Shown piece by piece: positions 37,601 through 55,600 of a DNA stretch of 64,000 nucleotides (positions are counted from its first letter, which is position 1; each line of letters opens with the position of its first letter). A model generated the notes under the pieces. The model did no database searches. It had not been told where the DNA came from and saw nothing but the letters and a program-made list of their open reading frames with translations. Source of the DNA: Branchiostoma floridae. Its lineage: Eukaryota; Chordata; Leptocardii; Amphioxiformes; Branchiostomatidae. The position numbers and the translations under genes were made by a program. Location of the stretch: NCBI RefSeq assembly GCF_000003815.2, contig NC_049992.1, positions 16,865,751 through 16,929,750 of the forward strand. The letters are read 5' to 3'.

Positions 37601-40600
37601 ACAGTCAAGTTTATTGTGCAACGATTGGAACAGTTTACGTGCGGGTGGGAGGGGGGCGTGCGTCTATATATGCAGCTGCAGGAGGTCCTGCAGGACATTT
37701 TCGATCGTAAGAGTAACGTACAATTTGAAAAGATAGTGATCATGAATTCGGACACATTGAAACATATTTCCAAGGAACGGTATATAGTTTTTTTAGTAAA
37801 ACCAGTGTGTGGGGATTGACGAGAATTTAGATAGTTTAATGGTGCACTGTGCTTGAGCCGATGCGAGGCATTATGCAGGGCATTTTTGATTGTAAAAATA
37901 TCGTACAAGTTGAAAAGATGGATCGGATTCTAATACATTAAAACATACATTTCCAAAGAATAGTAGAAAACAACGGATTGTAGCTAACTGTTAAACAATC
38001 AGCAAAGCAGTTGGCAAGATGTCACACCTGAACTTTTGTAGATTTTTGCTTTTTGTTGGTACTAGTAAGATGTTATGTGATCAAGACAATATTTTCTTTC
38101 TGTTTCAGTGACGCCTTAGACTGTTCTCTGCTATATATACAAGTGACACAGTAATATACAGAAACTTACAGCTAGCAAAAGTCTGTACTCAATAAGATTT
38201 TACACAGTACACATTTATACTTCTTCTGCTGAAATCTACGCATTACATTTTGCATCCAACCAAAGAGGTTTGAAAGAGAGTCCTTGATCCAACCAAATTA
38301 GACCTTGAGACCTATTAACAGATCATTGATCACTGTGCATTTTGCACATACCAGACTCAATCGTGCCACTGAGCACTGCATTTTGCACACACCAGACCAA
38401 TTGTGCCACTGAGCACTGTGCATTTTGCACACACCAGACCTATCGTGCCATTGAGCACTGTGCATTTTGCACACACCAGACCTATCGTGCCATTGAGCAC
38501 TGTGCATTTTGCACACACCAGACCAATCGTGCCATTGAGCACTGTGCATTTTGCACACACCAGACCAATCGTGCCATTGAGCACTGTGCATTTTGCACAC
38601 ACCAGACTCAATCGTGCCACTGAGCACTGTGCATTGTGCAAATAAAGTCAAGCAAAGAACACATATATTGTGAACAATGTGTGAATCTATTTTATCGGGA
38701 AAATACCACCAAGGTGACATCATTTTCAGTGGAGATAATAGAGGCAAACAATGCACTGCAAATGCTTTAATGGCAGTTGTTAACCACAGTACTTGCAGAC
38801 AAGCAATTACCTGGACAAGTACAGACCTTGATGGTGTACTTTTTCAAGGAGATGCACTATACACCTACATAAAACCATCACTAAGATCTGGTGTGGAGTT
38901 CCTCTCCGTTGATGATATTCCAGACTATTTGCAACTTTACAACAATACTGTACGTGTATCAATAAAAGAGTCTTACACTGGAGACATATTTGCCACAGAA
39001 GCAGTCTATCCTTATTACACCTTAAAGAAAGCCCTAGAAGCAGCATTTGCTGAATCCAACACTTGTCTTTTCATAACAGCACATGGAATAACTGGTTCAA
39101 CAGTAGCATTGTTGCACGCTGATAACAAGTATTCCGTTTATGACTCACATGCCAGAAGTCCCATACTAGCATTGCCAGATAGCCATGGCACTTCTACTTT
39201 AAGCATGCACAGTTCAAACAGCAATCTAGTTTCATTCTTGCAACACTTTAACTGGAACACACAATGCAATTTTGAGGTTGTCACAGTACAAGCAGAAAAT
39301 GTTTTCTTATCAGTTGAACCTACTGGTATACACATTATCAATCTGACTAGCAATGTTTCTTCTATGATTGAGTCAGAAAACTGCTTTCAAGTTCAACAAC
39401 AACACACATACACCTTGGTTAAACCAGAGTTTGTATCTACGAAAGAGAACCTACAACAACCAAACACAGCATTTCCATTTGCACCACATTGTAACCAAAG
39501 TACTGGGAAAAACATTGTGCCATGCACCACAAGCAAACATCCAAGTGCTATGCCAGAGAACAGGAATGAAGGCCTCTTGAATCAATTAGTAATGTCACCA
39601 AATGCAGCATCAAATTTAAATGATAAAAAAGTGCAAGGTCTTGCAATCCAAAGCGCAATATGCAAGGACAAACAAGAAAAACAAACCTATCAACAGAAGA
39701 CAGAGAGTCTTGCAGAACAAAGAACATCATACAAAGCAAAGAAAGCAAATGAGACCTGTGAGCAAAAAGCAGCACAGCAAAGAGCATCATATAAAGCGAA
39801 CAAAGGTTTCCAGCCAACTTCCCATAGATTTTAGATATAAACTTCTAGTTTAATAATGATGCACATTTTACTGGAACACAACATGAAATTTTGAGGTAGT
39901 CCTTCCAAATGCGCCCCGGCCAGCTTTTTTTAAAAGCTTTCTTGTTACAATTCATCCTCGCTTAAGACTTGTCCGTTGATAACTACACTACAATATAAAC
40001 TTTCAAGGATTGATAAACTTTCATATTTGTATCCACTGAGTTTTGCATCTACAACTGTATAGTCACTGAAACGTCTTTAGAGTTGCATGCTGTGCAGTCT
40101 TTCGCAAACTTTTTCAATGGTGCCTTGCTTAGCGAACTAGCTCTGAGATTTCTTGCGCTCCCATGGAAATGTGAAGCTATCTTACGCTTTAAACAGGCAT
40201 TTAGCCAGGCATGCGTCAACGCGTCATCTGGACGAACTTTTCTTAGAATAACAAGAAATTTGATGCCCCTGGACGCCCTTACACTTAGGAGAAAATCGTC
40301 TGACAAGCATGAAATTCTGATTGACCAGGGATGCTACCAGGACATCTGTGGTCACAGTCTTCTACTGTGACCTCTGGAACAGCATTTTTACCTCTTGGGA
40401 TACCTAAGAATGCATTGTTTTAACTTAAAATCATCAAAAACTCTGCACCATGGAAGGTGGATGCCCCCAGACCCCGCCTACAATAGTCACTTACCGCGAC
40501 TTACCAATAAGTTTGGACTCCCTATTATAAAATCCTAGCTAAAAGCCTGGCTTTAAAAGACTCTATCCTTAGAAAAAAAACAGTTGGTGGTTATTTGAAG

Positions 40601-43600
40601 ACTTGTTTTCTTGTACATCAACTGATGGATGAACAACAGTAAACTTACCCTGCTGCCCAGCTGCCAGGGTTCATCTTCTGCTGCTGCTGTTGTTGTTGCT
40701 GCTGGATCTGCTGACTGGCAGCCATCTGTTTCTGTCGCTGAGGGGAAAAAAGAACATCCATAAAGATTCAACAAGGATGTCCCGAAAGCTTCACGAAGGA
40801 CATCTCTAAAACTTCAAGAAGTTCATCCAAACAGTTTCAACTAGGACATCCCTAAAGCTTTAACAAGGACATCCCGAAAGTTTGAACAAGGACATCCCGA
40901 AAGCTTCAACAAGGACAATTAATAGATTTGTTTTTCTTCTTCTTTTCTTCTTCCAGTTTACTGTAAATGTATTTAAGTTCGCGGAGATTTAATTGATGGA
41001 CTTTTCGTGGTGGTTTTAATTTTGCGGTAGCACCATACACTGTAGTCTCTTACTGTTATGGAAAAATATTCGCCGTGGTTTAAAATTCGCGGTGAAGCGG
41101 CTGCCGTGAAAACTGCGAACATTAATCCACCGCGAAAGTTTCTGCATTTTAAGTATATCAGACAAAGCATCATGGATGGATGTCATTCTTAGAATCAAGT
41201 TTGTATATGTCTTGAGTAACACTGCTTCAACTGACAGACCAGAAAGATGTAATGCTATTCAGGGGCGGGTTAACCGGTACAGTGTAACCAGTACAAAACA
41301 GTTCTTCTTGGAATTGGAAAAAATCAGTGGACCTGAGTTTGGACCGATTAGAAAATTAGGTCTAGGTTCAGGTCTAGACCAGGACCTGGTGTTCTGGACC
41401 TGGACAGTACCTGAATTTTCTGTACAGGTACACATCCAGGGCTCGAAATTCATTTTTGGGATTAGTTGCACTGGTGCACCCAGCTTAAGAAATTGGGTGC
41501 ACTAAAAAAATGTTGGGTGCACCACTTAAATTTAAGTAATAACCTAATAATAAAACTTAGTTACAAGCTATTCAATTCTTAAACAAGTACCATGACAGAC
41601 ATTTCCATCATCTTTCTAACTAAGATGTTAAGAATATGATGTATACTAGTACACTTTGATATCTTTACATACATAAACCTAACAAAATATTTGGGTGCAC
41701 CCTGTGCACCCACAGAAAAAGATTGGGTGCACAGCTCCAATTTTGGGTGCACCTGGGTGCACATGCACCCAGTATTTCAAGCCCTGACACCCCTAATACT
41801 ATGGGATGTCTCTCACCTCTTCCCTCTGCTTCCTCTCCTTCTCCTCCTGCATCTGCTGAATCTGGGCAAGAGATGGCACAGTGGATGGGGCGGAGCTGGT
41901 CTGCTGCGCCCACAGGGAATGCTGGGACAGCTGCAGTGCAGGGATGGAAGGAACTTCTTTGTACTTTGTACTTGTACCAAAATTTAATCAAATGTCATAA
42001 AGCATTGAATTTTCACTGCAAGAAAACACCACAATCTATGCACCTGTGTTCTATGTCTCCTATGTGACTTACCAGGTTGGCATAAGTCTCCTATGTGACT
42101 TACCAGGTTGGCATAAGTTTCCTACGTGACTTACCAGGTTGGCATAAGTTTCCTACGTGACTTACCAGGTTGGCATAAGTCTCCTATGTGACTTAACCAG
42201 GTTGGCATAAGTCTCCTATGTGACTTATTAGGTTGGCATAAGTTTCCTATGTGACATACCAGGTTGGCATAAGTTTCCTATGTGACTTACCATTGTTTCC
42301 TATGTGACTTACCATTGCTTCCTACGTGACTTACCAGGTTGGCATAAGTTTCCTACGTGACTTACCAGGTTGGCATAAGTCTCCTATGTGACTTACCAGG
42401 TTGGCATGAGTTTCCTATGTGACTTACCAGGTTGGCATAAGTCTATGTGACTTACCAGGTTGGCATAAGTTTCCTACGTGACTTACCAGGTTGGCGTTCT
42501 GCATCTGCTGGCGTTGCTGTTCCTGGAGCCGGCGCAGGGCCTCCTGCTGCTGTCGCTGCTGGTCCCGCTGCCTCTGCAGCTCCTGCTGTCGGGCCAGCTC
42601 CTGACGCTGGAGGTCCTGCTGTCTCTGCAGCTCCTGCTGTCTCTGTAACTCCTGCGGGAAGAGATTCCAAACCTCAGCTCAATACTAGTCGAAACTCAGG
42701 GGAAATACACCCAGTAGAGGAGGAGATATCTCCTTTGTGTATCCTCCCTTTTTTCCTTGGTCGGAGGGTTCCTAATGTTCACTTTGGAGAATGTATAACC
42801 AAAAGGTTTCCTTATCGCCAATTAGAGACTGTGATGCCAAAGATAGAGTGGATAACAACCTACTGCCCATCCTATGGTCTAAAAAAGGCTATAGGACCTT
42901 CACTGTAAATTCATTTAGGTTTGCAGCACTTGCAGCACAATTTCACAACATGGTGAAAACCTAGGGTTTGAATAATCATTGTGTTCACAGTTAAAATGAT
43001 TACAATTAGTAGTAACACAATGGAACAGGTCGCTACAAAACCACCAAAGTCAAAACCTGTTGTTACTACAATCCCTGTAAATACAAAGCAGTTTTCCATG
43101 CAATATTCTGCAAATTGCACTCACCACCCATAAGGACTTACCTGCTGCCTTTGCATTTCCTTTTGTCTCTCCATTTCTTTTTGGCGCTCGATCTCACGTG
43201 CTCTCTCCATCTCCCTCTGCCGTTCGATTTCCTCTCGTTTCCTACGTTCCTCTTCTTCCCTTTTTCTTCTCTCTTCCTCCTCCTTCTGTCTGCGAACGGC
43301 CTCTTGTCTCTGCAATTAGAAAGAAGTGAGTCAAACACAACAAGAGGTAAGGCAAGACTAGTAATCTCTAGCTGTGGGACAGAGGAAAACAAACCCAGAC
43401 CCTTGAGAGGAATTTTTCCTGGATTGGGCATACGCCTAGGATGCATCCAGCACTACAGACCAAGCCCTAACCAGGAATACACAGGGTAGGGGAAAGAGAA
43501 GGCAGCCTGAAAACTGCTGGAGAAGAGAAACTGTAGAAAAAATAAGGAGTACAGATATCAGCAACAGCTGGCACAACCTAAGAAAGAAGACCCAAAGAAG

Positions 43601-46600: not shown

Positions 46601-49600
46601 TTACGAATACAATATATTTTAGTCATGAAATATAATAAAATTTGTCATAGTGTTACAAAGCCATAAAAGCACCACCAATTCCTACGTAAAGGATTTGCCA
46701 AACCACACAATTTGTCAAAGTGATATCATGATGTATGTGTTGTGACAGTTACCAATATCATTTGTGCATTAGGCCACAATTCTTATTCTATGGAATGAAG
46801 AAATGGAAAATGACAACAGAAAAACAACCTTGAAAAACAAAGATTGTCAATGACTCAAGTATATGTTGTCACTGAAACCAAATTGATTTTGGGGACCAAA
46901 GAAATGGAAACAGCATGGACACTTTTACCACATGTCAATGAGGTTCTATTTGATACTTTCAAGTGAAAACTATGATTTCCGAATTCTTCTTCTCTGAACT
47001 TTAAATCATAGTGGTGCAGCAAGACAATTTGAATTGCGGTGCTGAGTTTGCAACAGGTTGCTGCAGTAACATTATTCAACTGCTTAGGAAGATCCCTGAT
47101 TGTATCATATCAATATTACTAGATATAAGAATAGGGAGATTACGTTTCTCCCTACCAACAAGGGTGGCGGGGTAGGTCCGGGCATGAAAGGCACTCTTCC
47201 CCATCTCTTGATGAGTTCTCCCAGCGGCTGGAACCGCTCGTCGCACGCGCGTCGCACCAGGAGGGTCATGGTGAAGTAGCCTGCGGTGAACCACTCCGCC
47301 ATCTCCTGGGAGCTAAAGGGACCTGTGGGGAGAGAGGTGGACCCTCTTAGCAAAATGGTACATCCCAAACAACCACTCCGCCATCTCCTGGGAGCTAAAG
47401 GGACCTGTGGGTAAAGAGGTGGACCCTCTTAGCAAAATGGTACATCCTAAACAACCACTCCGCCATCTCCTGGGAGCTAAAGGGACCTGTGGGGAGAGAG
47501 GTGGACCCTCTTAGCAAAATGGTACATCCCAAACAACCACTCGGCCATCTCCTGGGAGTTAAAGGGACCTGTGGGAAGAGAGGTGGACCCTCTTAGCAAA
47601 ATGGTACATCCCAAACAACCACTCCGCCATCTCCTGGGAGCTAAAGGGACCTGTGGGGAGAGAGGTGGACCCTCTTAGCAAAATGGTACATCCCAAACAA
47701 CCACTCGGCCATCTCCTGGGAGTTAAAGGGACCTGTGGGGAGAGAGGTGGGCCCTCTTAGCAAAATGGTACATCCCAAACAACCACTCCACCATCTCCTG
47801 GGAGCTAAAGGGACCTGTGGGGGGAAAGGTGGACCCTCTTAGCAAAATGGTACATCCCAAACAACCACTCAGCCCCAACAACAAAATTCCATCAAAGGGA
47901 TGCTAGAACTGTAAAGATTTACACACTTATAGATGACTGTTTTTATGTCACTCTAATTCAACTACTGTAGAACACTTTTCCAAGTTAACATTGCATTTTT
48001 GATCTGTTGTGAGCGACCTACCCTGTATCTCTCCTTGTGGATCCTTGTAAAACCATTTATTCGCAGTCTCCTGTGTCATGGGTAGGCCCTTTGGTTGACT
48101 AGAAGTATCTTCTAACTTTTCATCATCTTCTGCTGTCATTGTTGCTACAAGGCTCTCTGCAGCCTGGAAGAGAAGAGAACACTTATTTGTTTGTTTCTTC
48201 TGTTCGAAACTTTGTTAATTCATGAAAGCTCAGATCAGCCCAAAGGCTGCTTTTCACTGACGTCATGAGGGAAGAGATAAGACAAATTAAATAACAGAGG
48301 TGCATTTTGCATCATCTATAGTCCTAATATGTCTATACACATATTTTACAGTTTGTTTTGGTTGTTTCTGTTACTTTAAGACTATAATAAGAGTCTCTTG
48401 AAGGAAGCCAGAGTTGGGGCTGTGCATATGTCTGGTGATAGACTGTTCCAGAGTTTGGGCTGTGCGCATGTCTGGTGGTAGACTGTTCCAGAATTGGGGT
48501 TATGCCTATGTCTGGTGGTAGACTGTTCCAGAGTTGGGGCTGTGCGTATGTCTGGTGGTAGACTGTTCCAGAGTTGGGGCTGTGTGTATGTCTGGTGGTA
48601 GACTGTTCCAGAGTTGGGGCTGTGTGTATGTCTGGTGGTAGACTGTTCCAGAGTTGGGGCTGTGTGTATGTCTGGTGGTAGACTGTTCCAGAGTTGGGGC
48701 TGTGCGTATGTCTGGTGGTAGACTGTTCCAGAGTTGGGGCTGTGCGTATGTCTGGTGGTAGACTGTTCCAGAATTAGGGTTGTGCTATGTCTGGTGGTAG
48801 ACTGTTCCAGAGTTGGGGCTGTGCGTATGTCTGGTGGTAGACTGTTCCAGAATTGGGGCTGTGTGTATGTCTGGTGGTAGACTGTTCCAGAGTTGGGGCT
48901 GTGCGTATGTCTGGTGGTAGACTGTTCCAGAATTAGGGTTGTGCTATGTCTGGTGGTAGACTGTTCCAGAGTTGGGGGTGTGCGTATGTCTGGTGGTAGA
49001 CTGTTCCAGAATTAGGGTTGTGCGTATGTCTGGTGGTAGACTGTTCCAGAGTTGGGGCTGTGCGTATGTCTGGTGGTAGACTGTTCCAGAATTAGGGTTG
49101 TGCTATGTCTGGTGGTAGACTGTTCCAGAGTTGGGGGTGTGCGTATGTCTGGTGGTAGACTGTTCCAGAATTGGGGCTGTGTGTATGTCTGGTGGTAGAC
49201 TGTTCCAGAGTTGGGGGTGTGCGTATGTCTGTTCCAGAGTTGGGGTTGTGCGTATGTCTGTTCCAGAGTTGGGGCTGTGCGTATGTCTGGTGGTAGACTG
49301 TTCCAGAATTGGGGGTGTGCGTATGTCTGGTGGTAGACTGTTCCAGAATTGGGGGTGTGCGTATGTCTGGTGGTAGACTGTTCCAGAATTGGGGCTGTGT
49401 GTATGTCTGGTGGTAGACTGTTCCAGAATTGGGGCTGTGTGTATGTCTGGTGGTAGACTGTTCCAGAGTTGGGGCTGTGTGTATGTCTGGTGGTAGACTG
49501 TTCCAGAGTTGGGGCTGTGTGTATGTCTGGTGGTAGACTGTTCCAGAGTTGGGGCTGTGTGTATGTCTGGTGGTAGACTGTTCCAGAGTTGGGGCTGTGT

Positions 49601-52600
49601 GTATGTCTGGTGGTAGACTGTTCCAGAGTTGGGGCTGTGCGTATGTCTGGTGGTAGACTGTTCCAGAGTTGGGGCTGTGTGTATGTCTGGTGGTAGACTG
49701 TTCCAGAGTTGGGGCTGTGTGTATGTCTGGTGGTAGACTGTTCCAGAGTTGGGGCTGTGCGTATGTCTGGTGGTAGACTGTTCCAGAGTTGGGGCTGTGT
49801 GTATGTCTGGTGGTAGACTGTTCCAGAGTTGGGGCTGTGTGTATGTCTGGTGGTAGACTGTTCCAGAGTTGGGGCTGTGCGTATGTCTGGTGGTAGACTG
49901 TTCCAGATGTTCGGTCCCTGGTAGGCTGTGGCTCTTCTGAAAGGTCTCTTGCTGGGGTTTTGGGACAACCAGTTGATTGCTTGTGCTTTGTCTGGTTATT
50001 TTTGTGCTTTGATGTCAGTAGACAAAAGTCATGCACATGTAGGGTAAGAGTTTGTAGTTTAATGATTTGTAGATGAGTACAGCATTGTAGTATTGATTGA
50101 CATGGTACATTGTGATAGTGACAATGAGTCGATCTTGTCTCAAGCAATAACGATTCTGACTTGCGTCAAGTCTTATTACAGCAAATTAGCTTAATGCAAT
50201 TATTACAAAATGCCAGAGTGGGAAAATAAAAACTCTGCAGTCAATAATTCTTCACTCTTAAGTGAGTTGAGCTTGTCTCCAGTAATGATGTTTTTTTTTG
50301 TGTGGGAGGAAAAGATGTATTTTCAGCCTCATTACTGAAACCTTGAGGTGACCACAAAGGCTCTTACAAAATGCAAAATGAGTGGGGAAAAAAAACAATT
50401 CTTGGACCAATAAGTTCTCACTTTTAATGATCAAGTCTTGAGGATGACGTTTCGGACTCGAGAATGACGTTACATTTTCTTCCAAAAACTTTCAAGACTT
50501 CTTACGAGGTGAAGGCTGAGAAGGAAACAGAAACTACTCTTAGGTAAGCTAATCCTCACTTTCAGTCCACCGGCCGCGTCTCGACCATGATGTTTCTGAC
50601 ACATGTAGAAGACATGCCATTGCAGTCTAAATCCTGTATCCTTTGACCTTCAAGCAACCCTTAGACCTCCTCGTTCGTTCAAACCCTTGTAGTGACAACT
50701 GGCCCATTGGTTAGTTTCCTTGCTATTTCAGTTGCAGGGACCTCAAAAGATGGGCACAGAACCAATCGAGATACCCTTCCTTGGGTTGAACTCAGGTATC
50801 CCAGTTACCAACTAATAAGAACCATGTGCTCAACTGTGAGGCTGCTACCAGTTGAGCTACAAGGACATCCCTTGGCAAATTTTAAAAAAAGGGCAGAACA
50901 AACTCACCTTTTCTATCTGAATGTCTAAAGCCTCGTCGTCTACTACTGGTGCAGTATTGCTTGTAGGGACTGTGGTTCCTGCCACCGAACTGACAGGATT
51001 CTCCGTCACACTCACCATCACCTGGGAAACACAAAACCTGCTGAGCCCAGAAATGGACAAACTATGCTGTACTAGATAACAAGACTCGTTATTCATAACC
51101 AAGACACTGTAAATACATTTAAGTTCGTGGGGATTTAATTTCGCGGCAGCGGGAAAAGGGACTTTTCGCGGTGGATTTAAGTTCGCGGTAACACCATAGA
51201 CTGCAGTCTAACATCATAATAGAAAAATGTTCGCGGTGGTTTTAATTTTGCGGTGAAGCGGTCACCGCGAAAACCGCTAACATTAATCCACCGCGAACAT
51301 TTCTGCATTTACAGTATATGTAGCCTGGGAACCAAATGGATAGTAGTTCACTCTGATGTTTATTATACACTATATACAGTCACTTCTCGCTGCAACTTCT
51401 ATTATCCGCTTCTATACTGCTCCATCTGGGAAGCTTGACATCTCTAGTGTCTGGAATCGTCCAGAGGGTGCTAAATGGTCGCTACACATGAGCGAATAAG
51501 GGCTCAAGCACTCGCTCGAACAGGCGTTTTAACACCTGAAACGCCCTCCGTCCGCTCGTGGGAGGCCTGCTGTCATCGAACGAGTGCTCTATAACCCATT
51601 CCTTAATTCGACCACCAAAAGGTTTGAATGTGCAGGTCTCCAGACCAATAGCAGAAGCGAACATAGGCGCAAACTACTATCTGGATGGTACCCAGGCTAA
51701 GATCATGAAATATCACAGGGGGCCTATTTAAGAGAACATCTTACAAAGACGGTCTCTACCACTGTCATATAAGTACAAATGCAATGAAGTATTTGGCAAC
51801 TTGCTCTGTTAAAACCTTCTACCGTTCTTCAAGCATTAATGTTTAGGTAACAGTTTTTTGTATCATCAGAAAAGCTAGGCAGGCAGAAAACATTTATACA
51901 ATCTTCTACTGCAAACATCTGCTTAGAGATCATTCTATGAGAAAATGTTGTGAAATGAAAACTTCTACTGGGGGTAGTTCCTGTGTAGCTGTATGCCTTT
52001 CTATTTTATATGTCCTGTATTCTATATGTTGTTACTCAAATGTTATTGTACTGTATGACATTTTCGTGTGAGGGAGGGCAACTTGTAAAGGTTGTTTGGA
52101 CCTGTTTTGCCCTCCCCATCACTTTGTGATGAATGCAAATAAACAAATAAATACTGACCTGTGAGTTAGCTGCCTGAGATGAAGGGGGATTAGAAGTCAT
52201 TGCACTTTCCTGAGTCCTGGGGGGTGGCTGAGAAGGGGGTCTGGGGGAGGGTTGGGAGGGGGGACGGGGGGATTGGCTATTTACAACAGGAGGGGCGGAC
52301 ATGGGGACCTCGCGAGGAGGGGGAGAGGGCTCCTTGGAGGGCATGGGGATGGGTTCTGGAATTGGCTTGCTCTCTGGAGGTGGCTGCCTGCTGGGCACTG
52401 AGGACGCTTTCTGGGGCTTCGGATCTTCTGGTGGACAAATTGTTCATGTCAAACACTTTCAGAAAAAAAAATCTTCCATAAAAAGAGAACAAACAAGCAC
52501 TTGTATACTGTAATTATTGAAATATTGTGGCTCTTCTGATTCAGAATTATGAAACCAGTGATTTCAAAAACTTTCAGAATCAGGAAATCTTTCACCCCAA

Positions 52601-55600
52601 AAAGCAAGCATTTGTATATATTTAAGTCTTATTTCAATATTAGTTTAATAAAAATTTAATGACTAAAGTTTGATATTAGTTTAATAAAAGTTAAATGATT
52701 TTCAAAATAACCTCTCCCAAATCATCAAAAAAACAAAGGTTGGTTCAACAATGCCCATTGCAAACTTTAGAAATCTACAATATAGTTAAATGTCCCTCTA
52801 ATACATTGTGTAGACTTGATCCTGATTGTTTAGCCCAGTGAACATACATTTAGTTGGTTCTACTCTCAGTAAGAGGATGAGTGAGTGACTGTCATCACAA
52901 TTAACACTTCAACCAATAATAGAATGGCAATTGGTGGTTGGACCAATGAGAGAGCTGCATGTTCATGAAAACAATATTTGCATTTTGATGCTTTTATTGT
53001 GCATTTTGTGTTTTTTCACGGGTGGGAAGGGCTATGGAATCAGTCCATTGTTTGGGCTACAAGTCAAGTCTCTAAAATCTCACCTGGTCTGGATGTTTCC
53101 GTAGGTTTTCTACCACTGTCTTCCACTTCCTCATCTTCCTCTTGTGGTGGCTCTTTTGAGTGATCTACAGACTGAAGAAAACATTGCATTTTATCATCTC
53201 AACCTTCATAACGTAAATGCATCTAAGTTTTTTAATTAAATTAAAGTTGCCTGTACATCAATAACTTGGGGGTGGCGCCCATCTCCATTTCTGTAGCCCT
53301 TGGGCCACACATGTGCAAGTCACTACAGCAGGGGGCTAGTCTGCTGGTAGTGATGTGTGTTTAACTTCCATACTCTTCCTCATTAGTGCTGAGTGCTAAG
53401 CAGAGAAAGCAGCATGTACCATTTTTAAAGTCTTTGGTATGACTCGGCCGGGGATCGAACTCACGACCTACCGAATGCAAGGCGAACACTCTACCCACTC
53501 GGCCATTGCACCGGTCATTGCATCTAAGTTTGCTGGACTTAATTTCACAGTAGGGAGAAAATTAAGTGCTTTGAGTTGTTTTCATATCACCATAGCACTA
53601 TAGTCACATAATATCTACATAGCAATGGAAACCTACTAACGACTCGGTAAGGGTGCTACAGATGGACACAACAGTCGCATTCGGCGGTGCTGGTGCGCGC
53701 AACTGATACTGATCTAATCATATGTACCCTTTGGATATGAAGTACTGCTTAATAGATACGTATCCAATGTTCAAAGATCACTTGCTGTCCTGTCTTACGT
53801 ATATGTGGCTTGTACTTACTGTTTAAAACTGGTGTGTTTAGGGGTGGATACAGGTAGAGAAAATTCAGGTACAGGTACAGTCCAGACCTGAACCTTTTTT
53901 TGGACCAGTCCAACAAGAAAAAAACGTTTTTTTTACTGGTGCATTGTACAGGTACCCACCCATAGGTGTGTTACGAAATTGGTGTGATACCTTAAAGCAG
54001 TTGAGTAGTTAAGCCAAAGAAACATGACAAGACATACTAATTACCTCTTGGTTTTCCTCATCCTGTTTGGCAGCAGCTTCCTCTTCAGCCTCTTCTTCTA
54101 TTGGTTCTGGCTCCTTCTCTCCCTTCTATAAAGCAATAAAGATTAAACCTTATTATCATATCCAGTCTGTGTGAACCAATCACAAACCTCCATTCACTTT
54201 GGTTAAACAGCCATTACATCATGAGTATGGGTTAATGAAGGGGAAAGTTGCACATTGATTTGCCAATAATGATGGGATTTCAACTTCTGACCAATAGCAG
54301 GTCAGTTTACAGACAAGGAAAACCTGGCAAGTTATCTACAAACCTTCATAAACTGCTTCACTCACTCATTGCTTTATTCGGTGGTAATATGACACTGGCT
54401 AGCCTTTAGGTCACAACCATTATACTCTTAATTGAAGGAACTTATCTCAGAATTTAGCTATAGGGTATGTTGGCAAAAGTCACCAAGCACAAAGTCATAC
54501 TGAAATGAGAATACACAAATTACCTTAAGGGAAACAAAAGCCCCGGACGAATCAAACGTTCCCACACCGTCTGATTCAATACTGTCATCCATGCACCAAT
54601 CAGGAAGGTCCTCTTTGTCGTCTGCCCAGTCCCCGCTGTGCGAGCGCTGGCGGCCCCCGCTGAAGTGCCGCTCGCGCCCTGACCGGAAATCGAAGTCGAA
54701 GTGCCGTTCTCTCTCCCCGCGCCCGTTGAAGTCTCGCCAACCGGCGCTTCTTGGTCCACCTATGAAATCACCAGGAGGCTTAGCTACCGATTGAATAATA
54801 TCATAAGCATATTATTATTACAAATTGGGTTCTATATTCAAGGATCTAACTAGCTTTCCCTGCAAATCTACAGCGGGGTGGTACTGTAAGTCTGTAGAAG
54901 TGAAACACACTGAAACAAATCTGATAAATATAACCAGACCTCGCAAATCAGAGTATGTGGAGAAGGACAACCACAAGCCAACCGTTCACATTTACGACAC
55001 ATCTTCAGAAAAGACGCTGAAGCCGCATGTTCCCCATTTAGGAACTTTATGCGAACCGACACACAACAAACATGTTTGGCCGTGTGGCTTCCTCAGTGTT
55101 ATGGGCTTGAATCGACCTCACAAATCAATCAAACCTGTAAAAGCGACCAGCACTACATAAGACCCACCAGGCCAATGCTAACACTTTTGGAGATACCTTA
55201 GATAATTTTGACGCAAGCATGAAGAACCTTGTCCATTGTGACCACATAGTATACACATAGATTTTATCAGTCCCCTGAGTGGTCTTTAGTTTTGGTTGTA
55301 CCTACCAGGGCTCATCTGTTTCCATCTTTCCGATCCTCGATGTCCCGCCGATCGCCAACCGCCCTCTTCATCCTCGTCCTCACGCTCTCGCTCGAGAGCG
55401 CGGTCGCGATCTCTGGCCCGCCAGTTGTCACTATTTGATCCTCTACTGAATTCGAACTTCCGCGGCGAGGGCGGACCCCCCTCCTCAAATGACCGACCTA
55501 CTGTGGAAAACATGTCAAGCTCTGCATCAGAGGGAGGAGGGCGAACGGACAAGAGGAAAGGAAGGTAAACAAACAAACAAACAAACAAAAGTTTTAGGGG

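Follow-up and report, generated by a model that had tools for sequence, protein, structure and literature searches.

How a gene copes with seven near-identical copies of one splice acceptor, and whether such copies adjust its output, is the question raised by a tandem array at the GYF-domain exon of a lancelet gene. We addressed this question in a 64,000-nucleotide stretch of the Branchiostoma floridae genome (NC_049992.1, positions 16,865,751 to 16,929,750 of the forward strand), hereafter called the window, to which all coordinates refer unless stated otherwise. An initial annotation of this DNA had concluded that the gene must either always choose the most exon-proximal acceptor or use copy number to tune its output.

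The acceptor array of the GYF-domain exon

The affected gene is encoded on the minus strand and is referred to as GIGYF-like, a name based on database matches of its GYF part and on known features. Relatives of the gene are translational repressors. Exons 12 and 13 encode the GYF domain, which matched the structures determined for the GYF domains of human GIGYF2 and GIGYF1 (E-values 7.4e-36 and 1e-35 by phmmer); the remaining two structure matches were SMY2 (2.1e-9) and a plant protein (1e-7). The full domain scored 82.2 bits against Pfam GYF (cut-off 25.7). Exon number 13 was taken from the initial annotation and all other exon numbers count from it. The model runs from exA to exon 26, exons within it may be missing, and the exB donor (GTCAGG) is uncertain. 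The modelled exons 12–17 and 17–22 splice to open frames which agree in exon 17. All 20 gaps between neighbouring modelled exons comprise at least 255 nt; the gap between exons 23 and 25 is more than one intron and holds exon 24, which lies outside the model. The features of the acceptor region are:

48022..48163, minus strand: exon 12, which precedes the GYF exon and ends in phase 1 (gene model)
47156..47322, minus strand: GYF-domain exon (exon 13), 167 nt (gene model; PDB match to human GIGYF1/2 GYF; Pfam GYF)
47289..47874, minus strand: 82-bp array across the GYF-exon acceptor (TRF, unit alignment)
47323..47324, minus strand: predicted true acceptor AG, most exon-proximal, first exon base 47322 (unit alignment; exons 12–17 open through 47322)
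47405-47406, 47487-47488, 47569-47570, 47651-47652, 47733-47734 and 47815-47816 (span 47405..47816), minus strand: AGs of the six decoy acceptors (unit alignment)
47814, 47732, 47650, 47568, 47486 and 47404, minus strand: first exon bases of the decoys (unit alignment)
47346..47350, minus strand: CTAAG of the true copy, branch-point-like, A at -25 from the exon, present in 7/7 units

The array is real and chance is ruled out as its origin: TRF reported 47289–47874 with period 82, 7.1 copies, 95% matches and a score of 1081. CACAG followed by GTCCCTTTA occurs seven times on the minus strand at an exact spacing of 82 bases, and the unit alignment showed in every copy CTAAG, a pyrimidine tract, CACAG and then GTCCCTTTA, G or A, and CTCCCAGGAGATGG. 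We take the CTAAG motif to be branch-point-like by its agreement with the consensus. In gene orientation all six decoys lie upstream of the predicted true acceptor, which places the first decoy 207 nt into an intron 12 of 699 nt (699 minus 492). Over 82 bases, copies 3 and 5 equal the true copy letter for letter and copies 1, 2, 4 and 6 differ from it at three positions each, so that identity to the true copy ranges from 96 to 100%. A genome search with the 82-mer gave at least seven matches, those listed all lying within 47289–47874.

The initial annotation had thus correctly described a tandem array at this acceptor, a unit across the intron/exon border with pyrimidine tract and CACAG, and six near-perfect decoys upstream; its position 47,324 corresponds to the A in the AG of the true acceptor. 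Its figure of 30 coding bases per unit compares with an exonic share of 30–34 bases, depending on how the common 8-bp edge is assigned. Its statement that all copies keep the tract and the AG stood as an observation, the AG being intact in 7/7 copies, and failed as a sign of selection, as set out below.

A matrix was built from 20 further acceptors in the gene model, which themselves scored between -3.2 and 15.5 with a leave-one-out median of 7.1; they are a small sample from one gene and depend on that model. Judged by this matrix, the decoys scored 8.02–9.84 and the true site 8.54. The decoys therefore score like other acceptors of the GIGYF-like gene; the array acceptors outrank 13–16 of those 20. 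A score at least as high as that of the true site was reached by 43 of the 1697 AGs of the gene region, decoys and training sites counted. Nothing found inside the unit separates the true site from the decoys; two of these, copies 3 and 5, match it in all 82 letters. RNA structure was rejected as a means of hiding the decoys, since the array RNA folded no better than its shuffles (z +1.13 against 100 shuffles, 87 of which folded at least equally well). The G+C content amounts to 63% in the unique part of exon 13, 54% in the array and 35% in the unique part of intron 12, and such a contrast is of the kind that accompanies exon definition.

Use of a decoy would add 82n bases after the phase 1 end of exon 12. 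Translation of the modelled exons showed that for 6/6 decoys the frame crosses the first added unit and stops in the next copy at CTT-TAG or CTT-TAA, 157–567 nt ahead of the exon 13/14 junction. The truncated form retains positions 1–23 of the 45 GYF positions, and its Pfam match falls from 82.2 to 46.6 bits. The phase, the added length, the stop at CTT-TAG and the truncation before the end of the GYF domain had all been anticipated by the initial annotation and agree with this translation. Transcripts with such premature stops are expected to be removed by nonsense-mediated decay.

A second boundary array and the lancelet mirages

The donor of exon 19 of the same gene is multiplied as well, by an array which the initial annotation did not contain:

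42058..42495, minus strand: array of a 31-bp unit, about 15 copies, multiplying the exon 19 donor (TRF; donor positions)
42485..42486, minus strand: presumed true exon 19 donor GT, most exon-proximal, CTG/GTAAGT (gene model)
42487-42651, minus strand: exon 19 (gene model)

TRF gave 14.8 copies with 88% matches. GTAAGT is intact in 12 of the 15 donor copies, the presumed true donor included, the remaining copies having GTATGT, ATAAGT and GTTAAG in its place. We translated 12 alternative donors, leaving out the ATAAGT and GTTAAG copies. In ten of these a stop falls inside the added bases, the donor at +59 leads to a stop downstream, and that at +31 shifts the frame, which then stays open through the end of exon 21.

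Tandem repeats of exon–intron borders have been published from lancelets as “mirages” (PMC3087553, PMC3902484), a class absent from the initial annotation. The cases described are Adh3, the globins BflGb6 and BflGb9, PGBD5 and TnC; the units measure 10 to about 160 bp (PMC3087553), and repeats of 60 and 108 bp lie at splice sites of lancelet PGBD5, in a report that also cites Adh and TnC (PMC3902484). Mirage lengths are described as varying between haplotypes and individuals. RT-PCR of globin genes, including one with an acceptor mirage, and data for Adh3 are reported to suggest that regular splicing is undisturbed, mirages were proposed as a source of new introns, and an older draft assembly apparently had one mirage wrong (PMC3087553).

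The two arrays in the window have features of this class: they span an exon–intron boundary, at the exon 13 acceptor and the exon 19 donor, their units of 82 and 31 bp are of minisatellite length, and the splice signals are kept in many repeats (AG in 7/7, GTAAGT in 12/15). Judged by these features, both arrays fit the known lancelet mirages, and the GIGYF-like gene is likely an additional case, one in which, by their sequence, an acceptor mirage and a donor mirage occur together. The likeness extends to a minisatellite-like border repeat with AG or GT retained in many units, to the occurrence at both kinds of border and to decoys that could yield aberrant transcripts. Two splice-site repeats are also described for the PGBD5 mirage gene. 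The differences from the published cases concern the gene, GIGYF-like, the units of 82 and 31 bp, and the kind of evidence, RNA having been examined for the globin and Adh3 mirages whereas the arrays in the window are described from their DNA. A search of the literature by titles and the beginnings of abstracts retrieved no GIGYF mirage.

A search of the genome for the globin family gave nine matches. One of these loci (L018 on C18) contains at 954–1601 an array of a 158-bp unit with 4.2 copies, in which four acceptors, spaced 154, 158 and 158 bases apart, lead to a globin exon, namely three decoys and the true site; with the frame set by the true exon, 3/3 decoys end at a stop. This array fits the published BflGb6 mirage. 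The other eight globin loci, of which about 3.2 kb each were searched, contained no comparable array, and the 157-bp donor duplication published for BflGb9 was not seen in them.

Origin of the array and choice of the splice site

The edges of the 82-bp array suggest how it may have arisen. Comparison of the two edges revealed an 8-bp direct repeat:

47863..47870, minus strand: intronic copy of the direct repeat GAGTGGTT at one array edge
47289..47296, minus strand: second copy of GAGTGGTT, in the exon, at the opposite edge of the array

The match extends to GGCxGAGTGGTT (11/12) if one mismatch is allowed. Such identity is what duplication between short direct repeats leaves behind, and GAGTGGTT at both edges is likely the trace of a microhomology duplication. 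By base composition, an 8-bp match at a given breakpoint pair has a chance of about 1e-4, whereas 8 bp are in common at distance 82 in 1.9% of places in the gene region, arrays included; against this empirical rate, the inference is good but not strict. The border segment of 82 bp would first have been duplicated between the two direct repeats, and unequal exchange or slippage would then have raised the number to seven, with an apparently complete acceptor retained in every copy. Copies 2 and 4 have two changes in common that are missing in the other copies, for which reason a block of two units was probably duplicated within the array. Since two decoys match the true copy letter for letter, the coding edge of exon 13 probably takes part in the homogenisation of the array, and variants of copies 2 and 4, e.g. 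a change of Ser to Asn, might conceivably be moved into the real exon by this turnover.

Tandem acceptors of the NAGNAG type resemble the 82-bp array in that several AGs compete. In that type the AGs lie a few bases apart and have one common branch point. We rejected this type for the array, its AGs being separated by 82 bases and each preceded by a branch-like motif and pyrimidine tract of its own.

Rules for site choice have been published (PMC9225289). Exons between introns of more than 250 nt are stated to obey an exon-centric rule; in minigenes with equal 5′ sites the upstream, exon-proximal site was chosen exclusively, for 3′ sites the upstream preference was reduced between long introns and not reversed, and AGs sharing one branch point were limited to about 9 nt (PMC9225289). 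The rule for 5′ sites predicts normal use of the true exon 19 donor. For exon 13, the intron of 207 nt to the first decoy lies below the 250-nt limit, and together with the upstream preference of 3′ sites this implies that decoy use could be substantial. On these rules the acceptor array is less well explained than the donor array, and some leaky use of decoys may well occur.

The VNTR in intron 18 of human ABCA7 offers a further comparison (PMC5954066). With a 25-bp unit and up to about 427 copies it includes the exon 18 donor; retention of a single unit through a decoy donor amounts to about 2% and is unaffected by array length, and skipping of the next exon increases with it (PMC5954066). 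The VNTR closely resembles the exon 19 array in that the real donor lies inside it, decoys follow downstream and the addition of one unit shifts the frame. Unlike the array at exon 13 it acts on a donor, not an acceptor; its length correlates with skipping of the next exon.

We consider it likely that the GYF-exon array is a near-neutral lancelet mirage in which the exon-proximal site is mostly used and decoy transcripts are removed. The spliceosome would most likely define exon 13 jointly with the donor at its downstream end and hence mostly use the exon-proximal copy, as the rule for exons between long introns and the normal splicing reported for other mirages suggest (PMC9225289, PMC3087553). 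Transcripts from decoys, with their premature stop, would enter nonsense-mediated decay, and the array would be a tolerated load, not a device. The dichotomy drawn by the initial annotation is accordingly not forced: the published precedents point to a third reading in which exon-proximal use may dominate, some decoys may leak into frameshifted RNA and copy number may drift.

Tests for selection and rival explanations

The copies resemble each other too closely for intact AGs to count as evidence of selection. With ten distinct changes spread evenly over 82 positions, all AGs would remain untouched by chance with a probability of about 0.78, and selection on the decoy AGs was dropped as a candidate since this test has no power. 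Six of the ten changes fall inside the pyrimidine tract, which takes up 16 positions of the unit (P 0.006, in a post hoc test with tiny numbers), five of these six keeping a pyrimidine, and this clustering goes unexplained by plain neutrality.

For a possible excess of arrays across junctions, 36 TRF rows were reduced by hand to 17 arrays, one row per array within 33400–58800. Under random placement in the gene region 0.80 junction-spanning arrays were expected of 17 and two were seen (P 0.18); with no margin 1.17 were expected (P 0.33). The nine arrays of at least three copies gave 0.29 expected against the two seen (P 0.03, margin 8) or, with no margin, 0.48 (P 0.08). Arrays across junctions are thus not clearly in excess among the 17, and slightly above chance for those of at least three copies. 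The count of two leaves out row 42547–42655, a Gln-rich coding repeat with a 4-base overlap with the exon 19 acceptor at 42651; by bare overlap it would be 3/17. A 23-bp array of 7.3 copies (40750–40917) has its edge 13 bases away from where exon 21 begins, next to the acceptor but with the AG outside.

A second test covered the window and 22 stretches of ten kb (220 kb, 35,425 N), two of which, L008 and L009, flank the window, the other 20 being taken at fixed steps on C1–C3. It comprised 19 arrays with units of at least 20 bp and at least three copies, 11 of them from the stretches and 8 from the window, which contained a donor-like site in 2/19 cases against 0.18 expected (P 0.015) and an acceptor-like site in 1/19 against 0.47 expected (P 0.375). 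As both boundary arrays of the window were counted and known beforehand, this test shows nothing firm. Nothing in the results on the GYF-exon array demands a function.

Against this background the rival explanations can be weighed. Several decoys might be appreciably used by ordinary leaky alternative splicing, without regulation or benefit, the load being tolerated. The decoys equal the true site in matrix score, the intron to the first decoy would comprise 207 nt, and the upstream 3′ preference is reduced, not abolished, between long introns (PMC9225289); globin genes, one of them with an acceptor mirage, are nonetheless said to be spliced regularly (PMC3087553), and we regard this explanation as unlikely for the GYF exon. 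A dosage device, in which decoys divert a copy-number-dependent share of transcripts to a decaying stop isoform and array length sets GIGYF output, appears quite improbable. It would account for six intact decoys that score like the other acceptors of the gene and each run into a stop at one and the same point of the following copy; ABCA7 provides a human precedent of VNTR length altering splicing. However, in ABCA7 use of the decoy donor stayed constant with length and skipping of the next exon changed instead (PMC5954066), published mirages are said to leave splicing undisturbed (PMC3087553, PMC3902484), and the copies are too alike for their intactness to show selection. An extension, in which GIGYF output is set by both linked arrays (82 and 31 bp), each diverting a length-dependent share to frameshifted or stop isoforms, we hold to be decidedly improbable. 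If it were true, and if the lengths were unstable between individuals as described for published mirages, the two arrays would form a heritable, perhaps somatic, rheostat of GIGYF.

That faulty assembly has multiplied what is really one copy or a few seems very improbable: the copies carry private variants, the gene has a second boundary array with a different unit, and this assembly also contains an array that fits a published mirage (L018), set against the mirage apparently misassembled in the older draft (PMC3087553). Seven near-identical acceptors, two decoys among them equal to the true copy over 82 bases, constitute a natural competition experiment, and the cue for choosing among the identical sites can only lie outside the unit. 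With the exon 19 donor and the globin array alongside, exon-proximal choice could be tested in nature at acceptors as well as donors within one species.

Further repeats and possible mobile sequences were noted in the window. A 40-bp array of 38 copies occupies 48408–49907; its minus-strand frames are repetitive and, by eye, presumably resemble the C-terminal end of a LINE reverse transcriptase, and a 25-residue piece of the repeat gave no Pfam match. On the plus strand, in an intron of the gene and opposite to it, 38674–39834 contains a frame of 386 residues uninterrupted from stop to stop, with a borderline match to Pfam Herpes_teg_N (25.9 bits, cut-off 25); a mobile element may have contributed it as a gene resembling cysteine proteases. 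By eye, 53420–53510 (minus strand) looks like a tRNA-derived SINE; no Rfam family reached its gathering score in any part of the window. Beyond the window, an array of a 194-bp unit with 4.2 copies (L030, 9186–10000) reaches the end of the examined stretch, and the two units viewed carry CCAG/GTGAGT on the minus strand.
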